From: an uncultured Verrucomicrobiota bacterium
Lineage (GTDB): Bacteria; Verrucomicrobiota; Verrucomicrobiia; Methylacidiphilales; Verrucolacustridaceae
Assembly: GCA_903956835.1 (NCBI GenBank)
Contig: CAJBOM010000158.1
Coordinates: forward strand, 1 to 38,244
Length of the DNA stretch: 38,244 nucleotides
Direction: 5' to 3'
Below are positions 6-10,108 of the stretch, piece by piece; the first letter of the stretch is position 1, and every line of letters starts with the position of its first letter. Made by a program: the position numbers and the translations under genes. The notes beneath the pieces are model-generated. The model made no database searches, had not been told where the DNA came from, and saw only the letters and a list, made by a program, of their open reading frames with translations.

Positions 6-377
6 GTGGGGTGTGGGGCGGATCCGAGGGGGAGGTTTGAGGCGGAGGTGCGGGGGATGATTGGAGAGGTAAAGGCGGGAAGGTATGGGGAGTTGGAGGG
101 GGTGATGTCGGAGGGGTTGAAGGGGAGGATTCGGGCGGAGGGGTGGGAACCGAAGGCGGTGCTTGGGGTGGTGGCGAGACGGGATCGGGAGGAGAGGGCG
201 GAGTACTGCTTGAGGGATGTGCCGAAGTTTGAGGGGAAGTATGCGGAGGCGGAGATTGGGAGGGTGGTAGGGGAGCGGGAAAAGAGGGGGGTGATTCCTT
301 TTGTGTGGGAGGAGGGGAGGTGGAAAGTGGGGGCGGCGTATCGGGATGGTCGGAGTTGGGATGGGGAGGATTTTTAA
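6..377 (+). CDS. Hypothetical protein, probably 5'-truncated by window edge; possible lipoprotein (GVGC upstream of the mature-like part)
   Basis: Open frame from the window edge to 377; purine-rich coding pattern; no family recognised. Confidence 0.45.
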   Translation: MGCGADPRGRFEAEVRGMIGEVKAGRYGELEGVMSEGLKGRIRAEGWEPKAVLGVVARRDREERAEYCLRDVPKFEGKYAEAEIGRVVGEREKRGVIPFVWEEGRWKVGAAYRDGRSWDGEDF

Positions 378-2093: not shown

Positions 2094-2126
2094 GACTAAC
2101 TTAGACAATATAGTTAGTCGCGTCAA
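2094..2126 (-). promoter_or_regulatory. Candidate autoregulated TA promoter/operator: inverted repeat GACTAACT-N10-AGTTAGTC (2094-2119) with TTGACG -35 (2121-2126) and TAAGTT -10 (2098-2103), minus strand
   Basis: Perfect 8-bp arms; 17-bp spacer; lies directly before the antitoxin GTG at 2091. Confidence 0.55.
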
Positions 2127-3037
2127 GTAAGGGGCGTAGGAGGCTGGGTCGCCTTGGTGTTGCCACGACCTTGGGGTTTACCGTGGAAGCAGTGGTGGCA
2201 GGATTTCTCGTAGGTGTAGTGGGGGTGGGTGAGGTCGGAGGCGAGGAGGGGCATTTGGCAGTTGTAGCAAAGGACGGATTCGGTTTCTTGGAGCTGGGAG
2301 TCGACGCCGACGCGTTCATCGAAGACAAAGCATTCGCCTTGGTAGTGGGCGCCGCCGGCTTCCTCGAAGTATTTTAAAATTCCACCATCGAGTTGGAAGA
2401 TGTTTTTGAACCCCTGCATTTCCATGAAGGGGCCAGCCTTTTCGCAGCGGATGCCACCCGTGCAGAACATGACAAGAGGTTGGGTTTTTAGCGAGGGGTT
2501 CAGTTTTTGGACGGCTTGCGGAAAGTCGCGAAAATTAGAGATATTTGGATCGATGGCGCCTTGGAAGGTGCCCATGCGGATCTCGTACTGATTACGGACA
2601 TCGAGAAGGGTGATGGGGCGCTTGTCATCAAGCCACTGTTTGAGTTGGGTTGGGGAGATTTTAGGGGCGGGGTGGCGAGCGGGATCTACCCCAGGAACAC
2701 CGAAGCTGACGATTTCTTTTTTAATTTTTACGAGCAACCTTTGGAAGGGTTGAGTGGAGCCAGGGCTTTCTTTGGGGCGGATTTCGGAAAGGGCTGGGAT
2801 CGAGCGGATTAGTTGGAGGATAGGGTCGAGTTGGGGGCGAGTGCCTGAGAGAAAAAAATTAATACCTTCGGAGGCGAGTAAGATGGTTCCTTTGATTCCG
2901 AGCTCGAGACAGCGGCTCTTCAGTGTGGTTTTCAGTTCCTCGAGGTGATCGAGAGGGGTAAAGCGGTAGCAGGAGAGATTGATAATTTGGAGCACGATTG
3001 GGGAATAGTTTCGCAGGGGAAGGAAGAGGCTGACCAT
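2123..3037 (-). CDS. trhO: Rhodanese-domain tRNA uridine hydroxylase TrhO/YceA family (start uncertain)
   Basis: LLASEGINFFLSG, LLDVRNQYEIRMGTFQGAIDPNISNFRDFP, MFCTGGIRCEKA active site, C-terminal CxxC pairs. Confidence 0.9.
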   Translation of the reverse strand: MVSLFLPLRNYSPIVLQIINLSCYRFTPLDHLEELKTTLKSRCLELGIKGTILLASEGINFFLSGTRPQLDPILQLIRSIPALSEIRPKESPGSTQPFQRLLVKIKKEIVSFGVPGVDPARHPAPKISPTQLKQWLDDKRPITLLDVRNQYEIRMGTFQGAIDPNISNFRDFPQAVQKLNPSLKTQPLVMFCTGGIRCEKAGPFMEMQGFKNIFQLDGGILKYFEEAGGAHYQGECFVFDERVGVDSQLQETESVLCYNCQMPLLASDLTHPHYTYEKSCHHCFHGKPQGRGNTKATQPPTPLT

Positions 3038-3064
3038 AAAAATAAGAGGAGGAGTGAGGAGGGA

Positions 3065-3095
3065 GGGACGCGAAGCCCCGACGCGGGACGCGAAG
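3065..3095. repeat. Direct repeat: two copies of GGGACGCGAAG with 20-bp period
   Basis: GGGACGCGAAG at 3065-3075 and 3085-3095. Confidence 0.6.
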
Positions 3096-3164
3096 GGATT
3101 CCAGATGTGAGAAGGTGGGAGTGTTAGAAACCCCGACCGGTTCGGGGCAGGGTGCGAATGTGGT

Positions 3165-3190
3165 GGTAGGGCCGATGGTCTCCATTGGCC
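3165..3190 (+). repeat. REP-like hairpin element, copy A
   Basis: GGTAG-GGCC-G-ATGG-TCT-CCAT-T-GGCC. Confidence 0.6.
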
Positions 3191-3230
3191 GATAGAGCGA
3201 TTTAGGTTTGAGCGGTTGAGTGATTCAATC

Positions 3231-3257
3231 GGCGTATCACGGATGATGCGCCCTACC
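3231..3257 (-). repeat. REP-like hairpin element, copy B
   Basis: Minus strand: GGTAG-GGCG-C-ATCA-TCCG-TGAT-A-CGCC. Confidence 0.6.
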
Positions 3258-3284
3258 GGTGGACGGGTTTAAGTGTTGAGCGCA

Positions 3285-3310
3285 GGCGTTCTCGGAGAGA
3301 CCGCCCTACC
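3285..3310 (-). repeat. REP-like hairpin element, copy C
   Basis: Minus strand: GGTAG-GGCG-G-TCTC-TCC-GAGA-A-CGCC. Confidence 0.6.
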
Positions 3311-3348
3311 TCGGTGTTGAACCCGTGGTTGAGGTGAATTGAACTATT

Positions 3349-5472
3349 TTAAGCGGGACGAAAATCGACTTGGCGTTTTGGGAGGTCGATTTTCAGAACG
3401 GCGACTTGGAGTTGGACGCCGGCTCGGTAGATCTTGCCGGTGCGACGACCGAGGAGGGAGCGACGGGCGGGATCGAAGGAAAAAAAATCACCGGTGAGGG
3501 CGGAGACATGGATAAGGCCTGAGAGAAGAAAGTCGGGTAGTTCGACAAACATACCGAAGTTGGTTACTTCAGTGACCATGGCGGGGAAGGTTTGGGATGG
3601 ATTGGGGCCAGTCTGCATTTCGAGGTATTCGAGGAGTTTTAATTTTTTAGATTCCTGCTCGGCTTCGGCGGCGGTGCGTTCGGTACGAGAGAGGTGCTGG
3701 GCGAGGCCTTCCAGTCCTGAGGCATCCATCTTGGGGGAACCTTTGGTTGGGAAAAGGGCACGGTGGACAAGAAGATCGGCGTAGCGACGAATCGGGGAGG
3801 TGAAGTGGGTGTAGTGGGATTTGGCCAAGCCGAAGTGGCCGAGGCTTTTTGGGGAGTAGACGGCGCGTTTGAGAGAGCGGAGGAGGCCGATCTTGAGGGC
3901 ATGGCCGTCGGGTCGACTGGGAAGAATTTTGAGAATCTTTTGAATTTCGCCTCGTTGGGTGAGGTCGCCTGCTTTGACGCCGTGGGCGATGAGCAGCTCT
4001 CGATATTCTTGGAGGCGAGATTCCTCGGGAGTTTCATGGATACGGTAGACGGCGGGACGGTTTTCTTGGTTGAGGTAACGGGCGACTGATTCGTTGGCGA
4101 GAAGCATAAACTCTTCGATGAGCTGGTGGGATTCGTCGGTGGATTCTTTCTCGATACGGTTGGGTCGGCCTTGGGCATCGAGAAGAATGCGCAGTTCAGG
4201 AAAATCGAGGTCGAGAGCGCCGGCCTCGAAGCGGCGCCGACGGAGGGCGGAGGCGAAGTGCCAAGTGCGTTGGAGAAACCGATCGAGATCGTCTTGGGCG
4301 GGGCGGCGGAGGCGGGTGAGGGCTTCGGCGTAGGTGAGGCGGTGGCGGGAAAGAATGACGGAGCGGGCGAAGCGAGTAGCGCCGGGTTTGCCATCCGGGC
4401 TGAGGTGAATGAAAGCGGAGCAGGTAAGGCGCTGTTCGTTGGGGCGCAGAGAGCAGAGTCCGTCGGAGAGGCGTGGGGGAAGCATAGGAATGACGCCGTT
4501 GACCAGGTAGACGCTATTGGCTCGTTTGCGGGCTTCTTGATCGAGGGCGGAGCCGGGGATGACGTAATGGGAAACATCGGCGATATGAACACCGAGTTCG
4601 ACGTGACCTCCGGGAAGTTCGCGAAGGGAGATGGCGTCGTCGAAATCGCGGGCGGTATCGGGGTCGATGGTGATGACAAGTTCGGAGCGGAGATCTTCGC
4701 GGCCGACGGGGTGGTCGGGCAGTTCGACGGGAGGGAAGGAGGCGGATTCGGAGAGGGCATCGGGCGGGAAAGTGGAGGGGAGATCGAATTTTCGGATAAT
4801 GGAAAGAATGTCGATGCCGGGGTCGGTGGCTCGGCCGAGCCGTTCGATGATGACTCCCTCGGGGTTGGTATGGCGGTCTTTCCAATCGATGAGTTTGGCG
4901 ACGACTTTATCGCCGGGTTCGGCGGCGGGGGCACCGGCGGTGCCTGGGGCGGGGACGTAGAGATTATGGAGGAAGCGAGGGTCGTCGGGGATGACGATAA
5001 AGAATCGGGCGGTTTTTTGAAGAGTGCCGACGATTTGGGAGGTCTTGCGTTCGAGGATGCGGACGACGGTGCCGCGAAGGCGATCGGGGGCAGTGGGGCG
5101 ACGACCGCGGGCGGGGGCGGATTTTGCGCGGCGGTCGATGCGGGCGACGACGAGATCACCGTGAAGGGCGGTGCCGGTTTCTTCGGAAGGAATATGGAGG
5201 TCGGGCGAGCCGTCGGGGGGGATGACAAAGGCGAAGCCTTTGGCGTGAAATTGGATGGTGCCGGTGACGAGATCAGCGGAGTTGGAGGCAATCCATTGAT
5301 CCCCGCGGACGCGAGAGATTCGGTTGGCTTTTTCGAGTTGTTCTAGGGTGAGGGAGAGGGTGCGGAGGGGGACGCGGAGGCGGCGGCTGAGGGTAGCCGC
5401 GTTGAGGGGGGTAGCTTTTTTGCCTTGGAGAAGGGAGAGAACGCGGTCAGGTAACTGGCTGGCGGTAGACAT
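3349..5472 (-). CDS. rnr: Ribonuclease R (RNB family, S1 domain); start placed at MSTASQL because the track start overlaps glgA
   Basis: VITIDPDTARDFDDAISL RNB signature, HIADVSHYV, HFTSPIRRYADLLVHR, C-terminal S1 region. Confidence 0.94.
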   Translation of the reverse strand: MSTASQLPDRVLSLLQGKKATPLNAATLSRRLRVPLRTLSLTLEQLEKANRISRVRGDQWIASNSADLVTGTIQFHAKGFAFVIPPDGSPDLHIPSEETGTALHGDLVVARIDRRAKSAPARGRRPTAPDRLRGTVVRILERKTSQIVGTLQKTARFFIVIPDDPRFLHNLYVPAPGTAGAPAAEPGDKVVAKLIDWKDRHTNPEGVIIERLGRATDPGIDILSIIRKFDLPSTFPPDALSESASFPPVELPDHPVGREDLRSELVITIDPDTARDFDDAISLRELPGGHVELGVHIADVSHYVIPGSALDQEARKRANSVYLVNGVIPMLPPRLSDGLCSLRPNEQRLTCSAFIHLSPDGKPGATRFARSVILSRHRLTYAEALTRLRRPAQDDLDRFLQRTWHFASALRRRRFEAGALDLDFPELRILLDAQGRPNRIEKESTDESHQLIEEFMLLANESVARYLNQENRPAVYRIHETPEESRLQEYRELLIAHGVKAGDLTQRGEIQKILKILPSRPDGHALKIGLLRSLKRAVYSPKSLGHFGLAKSHYTHFTSPIRRYADLLVHRALFPTKGSPKMDASGLEGLAQHLSRTERTAAEAEQESKKLKLLEYLEMQTGPNPSQTFPAMVTEVTNFGMFVELPDFLLSGLIHVSALTGDFFSFDPARRSLLGRRTGKIYRAGVQLQVAVLKIDLPKRQVDFRPA

Positions 5473-5503
5473 GGGTCTTAGGGCATAGTGTAAGGCTCGA
5501 GCA

Positions 5504-6925
5504 ATGAACATCCTATTCGTGGCAACTGAACTCGCGCCTCACGCCAAAGTGGGGGGTTTGGCGGATGTGATGGCGGCATTACCCATGGCTTTGGCGAGGG
5601 CGGGGCACGGGGTGAGTTTGGTGGTGCCACTGCATCGCGGGTTGCGACTTTCGGGGGAGTTTCGGCGCACAAAGCGGGAGTTGAACGTACCTTCGGCGGG
5701 TCGTTTGCGGGGGACGCGAATCTGGGAGGGCAACCGCGGTGGGGTTTCGTTGTTTGGCATTGAACGGGACGAGTATTTCGACCGAGCCCATCCTTATGGA
5801 GAGGGGGGAGTGGATTACCCTGATAGTTTAGCGCGCTTTAATTTTTTGGCGCGGGCTTCAGTGGAGTTAGCGCGTTATATCGAACCGGTCCCCGATGTGA
5901 TTCAAGCGAATGACTGGCACGCGGCTTTGGTTCCGGCGCATGTTTTGGCAATGGGGCTACCGATTCGAACTGTTTTCACAATTCACAACTTGCGGTATCA
6001 GGGGGAGTTTGGGGCGGAGGAATTTGGGGAACTGGGGTTGCCTCTAGGAATGTTCCGAATGGAGGCGTTGGAGTTTTATGGAAAGTTAAATTTAATGAAG
6101 GGGGCGGTGAAAATGGCGGATGCGGTGACGACGGTGAGTCCGACTTATGCGCAGGAGATTCAGGATGAGGCGCAGGGCGCGGGGTTGCACGAGGTGTTGC
6201 GGTCGCGTGCGGAAAATCTCACGGGGATTCTCAATGGGATTGATGAGGAGGGGTGGAATCCGGCAACGGATACGGAATTAAAGATGAACTTTGAAGTGGG
6301 TTCGATGAAGGGGCGGGAGGGGTGCCGTTTGGCGTTGGAGCAGGAGATGGGGCTGGAGTCGGCGAATGGGCGACCTATTTTTGGAATGGTGACGCGGTTG
6401 GCCTTTGAGAAAGGGGTGGATCTGGCTCTGGCGGTTGCGGGAAAGATCGTGGAGAAGGGGGGGAGGTTGGTGATATTGGGAACAGGGGAAGCGGGTTTAG
6501 AAAAAGAGGCGCAGAGGATTGCGGGTAAATATCCCAAGCAGGTGGCGGTGAGATTGGAGCATAACGAGGGTTTGGCCCGGAGGATCTTTGCGGGATCCGA
6601 TTTTTTCTTGATGCCATCGCGGAGTGAGCCGTGTGGGCTGACGCAGATGTATGCAATGCGTTATGGGGCAATCCCGGTGGTGTCGGATACGGGGGGGTTG
6701 CGGGACACGGTGGAGGAGTGGGACTCGGTGAAAAAAACTGGGACAGGATTTCGTGGACAGGCTTCTTCGGAGCCGGGCTTGTTGGAGGCGGTAGATCGAG
6801 GCTTGGCGCTATGGAATGAGCCAGCGATGATGAGTGTGGTTCGTCGAAACGGGATGAGCCGAGATTGGGGTTGGGGCGCGGCCGTGCCTGCCTATGAAAA
6901 GGTGTACCGTTCCGTGCTACCTTAA
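5504..6925 (+). CDS. glgA: Glycogen synthase (GT5)
   Basis: MNILFVATELAPHAKVGGLADV (KVGGL), FTIHNLRYQG, NGIDEEGWNPATD, SRSEPCGLTQMYAMRYGAIPVV. Confidence 0.95.
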   Translation: MNILFVATELAPHAKVGGLADVMAALPMALARAGHGVSLVVPLHRGLRLSGEFRRTKRELNVPSAGRLRGTRIWEGNRGGVSLFGIERDEYFDRAHPYGEGGVDYPDSLARFNFLARASVELARYIEPVPDVIQANDWHAALVPAHVLAMGLPIRTVFTIHNLRYQGEFGAEEFGELGLPLGMFRMEALEFYGKLNLMKGAVKMADAVTTVSPTYAQEIQDEAQGAGLHEVLRSRAENLTGILNGIDEEGWNPATDTELKMNFEVGSMKGREGCRLALEQEMGLESANGRPIFGMVTRLAFEKGVDLALAVAGKIVEKGGRLVILGTGEAGLEKEAQRIAGKYPKQVAVRLEHNEGLARRIFAGSDFFLMPSRSEPCGLTQMYAMRYGAIPVVSDTGGLRDTVEEWDSVKKTGTGFRGQASSEPGLLEAVDRGLALWNEPAMMSVVRRNGMSRDWGWGAAVPAYEKVYRSVLP

Positions 6926-7974: not shown

Positions 7975-10108
7975 CGTGGCGCTGCTTTGGCATTTGCACC
8001 AACCTTCTTACGTGGACGCGGCGACTGGGGAGGTGCTGATGTCGTGGGTGCGGCTCCACACCGTGCGTGGGTATGCGGATATGGCGGAGATGGCCCGGCG
8101 GCACCCCCAGGTGAAGCTAAACTTTAACTTAACCCCAGTCCTGGTGCAGCAGATCGAACAGTTGGCGGAGGGGAAGGTGCGGGATCGGTGGGGAGAGTTG
8201 GCGAAGAAGCCAGCGAACAAGTTGACCGAAGCAGATCGGCAGGAGTTGTTGGAAAACTTTTTCAAAGTGAACTGGGTTACGAGTGTGGATCCTTTTCCGA
8301 GGTATCGGCAGTTACTCGACTTGCGGGGGCGGCGGGCGGGGGCGGCCCAGTCTCCGCAGAACGCGAAACGCTTTAAGGAAGGAGATCTGCGTGATTTGCA
8401 GGTCTGGTTTAATTTGGGTTGGTGTGGTTTCGCGGTACGAAAGAGATATCCCGAGTTGGAGGCTTTGATTGTCAAAGACAGGGATTTCACGGAGGAAGAT
8501 AAGTTGCGGGTTTTGCAGATTCATCAGGAGATGCTCAAAGGAATTTTGCAAGAGTACCGAGAATTGGCGGAGTCGGGACAAGTGGAGTTAACCACGACGC
8601 CATTTTATCATCCGATTCTTCCTTTGCTGGTGGATACGGATAGCGCGAAGAGGGCGATGCCAGGAGCGAGATTGCCAAGTCGGATGGAGGCGCCGGAGGA
8701 TGCCTTGGCCCAGTTGCAAAAAGCGCAGGTGCTGCACACGCGGGTTTTCGGGCGGAAGGCGCGGGGTTTGTGGCCGGCGGAGGGGTCGGTAAGTCCAGAG
8801 GTGGTGCCTTTGATGGTGCAGGCAGGCTTTGAGTATTTTTGTACGGACGAGCTGGTTCTTTTCCGAGGTCTCGAGGCCCAAGGAAAAAAGGTGGATCACG
8901 TGGAGCTTTTTCAAGCGTGGCGAGTGGAGGAGGGCGGAGTGACGATGAAGGCGCTTTTCCGAGAGAGGCCCTTGTCTGATTATATTGGATTTACCGCTTC
9001 GCGGACTGACCCAAAGGTTGCGGCGGACTATTTAAAAGTTCATCTCGAGCATATTACTCAAGTGATGGCGAAGGATGGGATTGTCTTGCTGGCCTTGGAT
9101 GGAGAGAACGCGTGGGAATCTTTTCCTGATAGTGGGGAGGCTTTTTTGGATGCTTTTTATGGCGGACTGGAGAAGGCGGTTGGATTGCGAACCCAGAGGT
9201 TGGGGGACTATCTCGATGGTAAAGAAGGAAAGCCCGCAGGGCGTTTGCATTCAGGATCGTGGATCAGTGCAAATTTTGATATCTGGATTGGGGATCCCGA
9301 GGAGAACCTGGGTTGGAGTTGGATCAAGCGGACTCGTGAATTCTTAAAGCAGGCGGAGGCGAAAGGGAAATTGACGCCAGAAGTTAAAGCGGCGGCGTGG
9401 GAGGATATTTATGTGGCGGAGGGGAGTGATTGGTTTTGGTGGTACGGGCCTGATTTCCAGACGGATAGCGACCTGATTTTTGACGCGCTTTTTCGAGGAC
9501 GATTGCAAAGTGTCTATCGAAGGTGTGGATCGACCCCTCCGCCAGCGTTGAGTCTGCCCATCTGTGCGGCGGACTTACATTTGGGGGTACCGCCGCTGGG
9601 GGTGATTGAGCCAAGATTGAGTACGACGCCGAGTTTTTTGGACTGGGTTCGGGCGGGACGGTATGAGGCCTGGCGGGATGCGGGGGCGATGGCGCAGGGG
9701 GATCGGCGGGTGAGGACGATTCAGTATGGGGTAGGTCGTGATGACTTTTTCTTCAGGCTGGATGCAAAGGGAAGTCCTGGGGAGGAGGTGGTAGTTGATT
9801 TCAATCAGCCAGTGGCGATTCGGGTGCGAGCTAAGGCTGGGGAGAAGGGTTGGCAGACGACGGTGGAGCGGGCGGAGGACGGGATGGTCTATGTGCCGGT
9901 GCAGTGTCAGAGTGAATCGGTGAATGGTCAGGGCCTTCAGCTTAAAGTTCCGTTGGGGGTGTTCGGCTGGGACGATGACGGTAAGGAGATTAGTTTTCTG
10001 GTGCGGGTGATGCGGGGAGGGGTGGAGGCGGAGCGTTATCCGGATCATGGGCTGATAGAATTTACTGGACCCGTGCGTGCCACCGACCTCAAAAACTGGT
10101 ATATCTAA
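7967..10108 (+). CDS. Glycoside hydrolase family 57 (amylopullulanase/glucodextranase-like)
   Basis: HLHQPSY (motif 1), LWPAEGSVSPEV (nucleophile region), LDGENAWESFP (catalytic Asp region), SGSWISANFDIWIG, AEGSDWFWWYG. Confidence 0.92.
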   Translation: MGDVALLWHLHQPSYVDAATGEVLMSWVRLHTVRGYADMAEMARRHPQVKLNFNLTPVLVQQIEQLAEGKVRDRWGELAKKPANKLTEADRQELLENFFKVNWVTSVDPFPRYRQLLDLRGRRAGAAQSPQNAKRFKEGDLRDLQVWFNLGWCGFAVRKRYPELEALIVKDRDFTEEDKLRVLQIHQEMLKGILQEYRELAESGQVELTTTPFYHPILPLLVDTDSAKRAMPGARLPSRMEAPEDALAQLQKAQVLHTRVFGRKARGLWPAEGSVSPEVVPLMVQAGFEYFCTDELVLFRGLEAQGKKVDHVELFQAWRVEEGGVTMKALFRERPLSDYIGFTASRTDPKVAADYLKVHLEHITQVMAKDGIVLLALDGENAWESFPDSGEAFLDAFYGGLEKAVGLRTQRLGDYLDGKEGKPAGRLHSGSWISANFDIWIGDPEENLGWSWIKRTREFLKQAEAKGKLTPEVKAAAWEDIYVAEGSDWFWWYGPDFQTDSDLIFDALFRGRLQSVYRRCGSTPPPALSLPICAADLHLGVPPLGVIEPRLSTTPSFLDWVRAGRYEAWRDAGAMAQGDRRVRTIQYGVGRDDFFFRLDAKGSPGEEVVVDFNQPVAIRVRAKAGEKGWQTTVERAEDGMVYVPVQCQSESVNGQGLQLKVPLGVFGWDDDGKEISFLVRVMRGGVEAERYPDHGLIEFTGPVRATDLKNWYI

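Follow-up and report, generated by a model that had tools for sequence, protein, structure and literature searches.

Why do three short hairpins with the same GGTAG head lie side by side between two genes of an uncultured Verrucomicrobiota bacterium? The window, which is the whole stretch of 38,244 nucleotides analysed here (contig CAJBOM010000158.1), contains them between the genes for ribonuclease R and tRNA uridine(34) hydroxylase. The features of the locus are as follows.

2123-3037, minus strand: trhO, tRNA uridine(34) hydroxylase, the downstream neighbour (NF001133, 247.4 bits against a cut-off of 170)
3165-3190, plus strand: REP copy A, GGTAG GGCCGATGG TCT CCATTGGCC (covariance model, 28.8 bits)
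3231-3257, minus strand: REP copy B, GGTAG GGCGCATCA TCCG TGATACGCC (covariance model, 38.5 bits)
3165-3257: REPIN of A and B, an inverted doublet with GTAG at both outer ends and a 40-bp spacer (3191-3230)
3285-3310, minus strand: REP copy C, GGTAG GGCGGTCTC TCC GAGAACGCC (covariance model, 31.4 bits)
3349-5511, minus strand: rnr, ribonuclease R, the upstream neighbour (TIGR02063, 639 bits against a cut-off of 597.85)

The sequences of the three hairpins are exactly as given in a preliminary description of this DNA. Each consists of GGTAG followed by a hairpin of 21-22 nt, the form of a GTAG-type REP. The description ascribed an identical architecture to them, which is overstated. The GGTAG head and the hairpin are present in all three, and a stem position called unpaired or mismatched exists in each copy, but it is three different things rather than one common feature. 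In copy A it is a G-T wobble. In copy B it is C.A, a point change at what is a C-G pair in other copies, including the orthologous copies in the related genomes G016 and G020. In copy C it is G.A, fixed throughout the C subfamily. The trio was also said to fill the trhO-rnr intergenic region, of which it covers only 146 bp out of 311 bp (3038-3348). When folded as single-stranded DNA and compared with dinucleotide shuffles, the copies have z-scores of -3.6 (A), -1.5 (B), and -2.8 (C). Copy B by itself has an unexceptional fold; the case rests on recurrence.

Recurrence was examined by pattern searches and covariance-model searches of the host genome, a 90.5% complete assembly of 2.17 Mb in 218 contigs. 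There were 38 matches of the pattern GGTAGGGCG-N(7..24)-CGCC, compared with 12 of the same pattern reversed. Among exact types, the 26-mer of copy C is the most abundant, with 16 occurrences. The covariance model was built from 17 hand-framed copies, and its E-values are rough, as the calibration was short. In the window it detected exactly A, B, and C (E 8e-6 to 6e-4), with the next best match at E 1.4. In the host genome it detected about 55 copies at E<=1, dispersed over the assembly; this number may be low, because scoring covered 150 of the 701 first-look candidates. The search for further genomic copies above control, which the preliminary description had proposed, thus gave a positive answer.

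The stems differ among copies and remain paired. In the 17-copy set, 93.5% of cells are paired, and changes on both sides of a pair number 35, against 8.9 in shuffled sets. In framing these copies, N was used as a placeholder for the absent loop base in copies with a 3-nt loop, which is not a genomic base, and the single base after GGTAG was removed in one mate copy. Because of these placeholder letters, pairing was analyzed again on unmodified sequences, chosen by their outer arms and a length of 26-27 nt. In this genus-wide sample of 70 distinct copies, pairing extends to 4.34 of the 5 inner positions, against 2.56 (sd 0.12) when the right arms are dealt anew. Neither shuffle gives a strict probability, as the copies share descent. 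The proposal that the divergent stems keep their pairing is therefore upheld. Of 26 host-genome copies, two lie inside an ORF of 150 aa or longer and 24 do not, although ORFs of that size make up 67% of the DNA at these loci. The REP copies are dispersed and mostly extragenic, and their stems vary yet stay paired.

Most copies are arranged in inverted doublets whose outer ends carry GTAG. Among the listed matches from the same genus, 16 of 20 close neighbour pairs are in plus/minus orientation with a gap of 31-34 bp. The A/B doublet has a sister copy with a homologous spacer elsewhere in the host genome (G000:C30:10014-10106), where copy A recurs at 10081-10106 in partnership with a B-type REP. 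G016 and G020 likewise have the doublet with homologous spacer, located 3' of rnr. In the DNA fold of the doublet, GGTAGGGC/GCCCTACC closes around both hairpins, with a z-score of -1.6 that is not significant alone. Copy C represents a second main subfamily, whose usual partner, GGTAGNGGCGGCATCTCCGAGGCCGCC, lies ~34 bp further on at many sites and is missing in the window. The trio is thus composed of one REPIN (A and B) and one solo REP of the second subfamily (C).

Another dispersed palindrome was observed in the same genome. The sequence CCCCGACNNGNNTCGGGG (mostly CCCCGACCCGCGTCGGGG or CCCCGACCGGCGTCGGGG) gave 54 strand-matches at ~40 places, against 0 for the reversed control. A version of it one base shorter, CCCCGACCGGTTCGGGG, is present in the window at 3131-3147.

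The search with PF01797 detected three RAYT-like genes in the host genome (L031, L032, and L033, on contigs C1, C174, and C111 of G000), and no GGTAG hairpins adjoin them. L031 and L033 are flanked on both sides, by GCTCGCAGCATGCTGCGAGC and TTGGATTTTGACCTCTGACCCCAAAA respectively, and L032 has GGTGTCAGACACGTGTCTGACACC on one side. As different short repeats adjoin them, they were rejected as the partner of the REPs. They resemble the TIRYT genes with terminal inverted repeats (PMC3733652), in being flanked by other repeats.

The partner clade of RAYT was found through relatives, as it scores low with PF01797 (24-25 bits). REPs adjoin the weak PF01797 matches L093, L101, and L102 in relatives, and none of 21 other scanned loci. 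The two intact clade proteins that were scored with NF047646 (REP-associated tyrosine transposase), L101 and L102, reached 97.5 and 86.3 bits against a cut-off of 80. The MPDHxH motif and the tyrosine before NPVR, as expected of a HuH tyrosine transposase, are present, and the best match in PDB is TnpAREP (4er8, E 2e-10). A search with the clade gave 12 strong matches across the genus (E<1e-50), including a locus in the window's own genome. This copy (C131:3-311) consists of the last 103 aa at the start of a contig, and is 93% identical to the G012 protein L102. It is cut by the contig end; its N-terminus and far flank lie beyond that end, and REPs are visible on one side. Two RAYT copies, L105 and L106, contain a stop. 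The clade RAYT was not found in the REP-carrying drafts G014, G018, and G020, which are 80-91% complete.

REPs that match the model adjoin 10 of the 12 clade loci and none of 17 other RAYT-like loci. The remaining two clade loci, L107 and L108, have GGTAGGCC hairpins of another stem type next to the gene. GTAG hairpins therefore stand beside RAYT in all 12 clade loci, the host genome included, although L109 and L119 show identical REP matches and are seemingly near-identical, so that the 12 are not all independent. L112 is accompanied by hairpins of the GGTAGGGTCGGGTC and GGTAGGGCCCGATC types. In the host genome, a REP (L111:285-311) lies inside the RAYT ORF, which ends at 314. In G012, a REP (L102:1315-1341) lies inside the RAYT ORF (1312-1812), at its 3' end. 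The overlap encodes the C-terminal residues of RAYT (L111:285-314 and L102:1312-1341); in the host genome these are GDVAPT followed by the stop.

The presence of an NF047646-family RAYT with REPs at its loci, the window's own genome included, together with the many genomic copies, bears out the REP/RAYT-type reading of the preliminary description and its suggestion to look for a RAYT gene. Very probably, the trio is a REPIN and a solo REP of a GTAG-type family that is spread by a RAYT encoded elsewhere in the genome. REPINs have been described as non-autonomous elements that RAYTs duplicate (PMC8049555, PMC3116915). Other RAYTs have been shown to bind and cut GTAG hairpins as single strands, in a strand-specific manner (PMC8266576; also cited in PMC3733652). 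By analogy with those RAYTs, the RAYT of this genus would bind the GTAG-tagged hairpin folded from a single strand, cut the DNA, and mobilise the REP doublet in trans.

Instead, recombination, duplication in place, or a different transposase might have spread the copies, with RAYT loci collecting them like any other intergenic DNA. Some copies do stand in tandem-like arrays with flanks in common, and the genome has three other RAYT-like genes. The presence of REPs beside 12 of 12 clade loci, against 0 of 17 other RAYT-like loci, and the different repeats next to those three genes speak against such a spread, which is improbable.

The rnr 3' flank was compared among relatives. The rnr protein is 98% identical in G014, G016, G018, and G020. 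In G018 there is no such hairpin, and the intergenic DNA differs as a whole, so that it is not a clean empty site. In G014 there are two C-type copies and no A or B. In G016 and G020 there are the A/B doublet, a C-type sequence, and a further mate (three to four REPs), and additional DNA then separates them from trhO. To judge by its sequence, this DNA contains a putative Phd/YefM-like antitoxin frame ~0.4-1.3 kb past rnr in both genomes (L133 and L153). More distant relatives have either no hairpins or other GTAG hairpins at this flank. REP occupancy of one orthologous site thus varies among close relatives. The evidence for mobility of the REPIN consists of the doublet at a second site and this variable occupancy; no clean empty site or intermediate was seen.

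The hairpins are present in many genomes of the same genus; in other families of the order, the genomes showed no clear excess of hairpins over control. In a species-level genome collection, the exact 26-mer of C is found in five other MAGs, assigned to Verrucomicrobia subdivision 6 or uncultured Verrucomicrobia, and in no further record among the matches listed.

Alternatively, the hairpins could be a cis-regulatory RNA of an rnr-trhO operon, acting at the mRNA 3' end, in processing, or in attenuation, and kept by selection at the locus. The two genes flanking the hairpins are on the same strand, and roles in terminating transcription and stabilising mRNA have been suggested for REPs (PMC3733652). 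However, the same hairpins recur at dozens of unrelated loci; in close relatives, whose rnr is 98% identical, the gap lacks them, holds different sets, or contains additional DNA; and Rfam gave 0 family matches in the window. An operon-specific RNA element is rejected because the hairpins are dispersed and site occupancy is variable; its probability is very low, marginally below that of a spread without RAYT. Chance palindromes in G+C-rich DNA, for which only the fold of B alone, little better than shuffles, could be cited, are refuted by copy number (the exact 26-mer 16 times in 2.17 Mb) and by covariation far above shuffles, and their probability is negligible.

With the trio read as a REPIN and a solo REP, there is no need to assume a special role at rnr-trhO, and the site of insertion is probably just intergenic DNA where the elements are tolerated. 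An effect on the rnr-trhO transcript, on the mRNA end or its stability, is possible.

GTAG REPs, their dimers, their association with RAYT, and a case in Verrucomicrobia (Opitutus terrae) have already been published (PMC3733652). The O. terrae families described there (GTAG-17, -19, and -20 among them) are GTAG-tagged short hairpins from the same phylum. Several REP families per genome and inverted dimers are found both there and here; this likeness is by description and not letter by letter. The REPINs and RAYTs of Pseudomonas fluorescens SBW25 (PMC3116915) are similar in their inverted doublets with a spacer, extragenic location, compensatory changes, solo REPs as probable remnants, and REP clusters beside RAYT genes, but differ in sequence and in host phylum. 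REPSm of Stenotrophomonas maltophilia, belonging to the perfect-palindrome REPtrons of group 3 (PMC8266576), shares GTAG directly before a near-perfect short palindrome, the loop of 3-4 nt, and the HuH transposase beside the repeats. The RAYT here could belong to group 3 or group 2. The TIRYT-like genes of the host lack GGTAG hairpins; the partner of these REPs is not among them.

A brief literature search found no published description of the REP family of this genus. The GTAG hairpins here are a well-supported new case of a bacterial repeat already known in kind. Their identity as REPs accounts for a feature that could be mistaken for regulatory RNA. Stem types differ between RAYT loci inside the one genus. 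It is conceivable, as a tentative proposal, that RAYT and REPs diversify together quickly within the genus, each lineage with its own stem type (GGCG-, GGCC-, or GGTCGGGTC-type), and that in one lineage the REP overlapping the RAYT 3' end could couple RAYT expression or the protein tail to REP sequence. With this finding, a REPIN/RAYT system is described for freshwater Verrucomicrobia subdivision 6, represented here by MAGs, and the roughly one dozen related RAYTs of the genus, with differing REP stems, are a natural series for studying RAYT-REP recognition and possible co-evolution.
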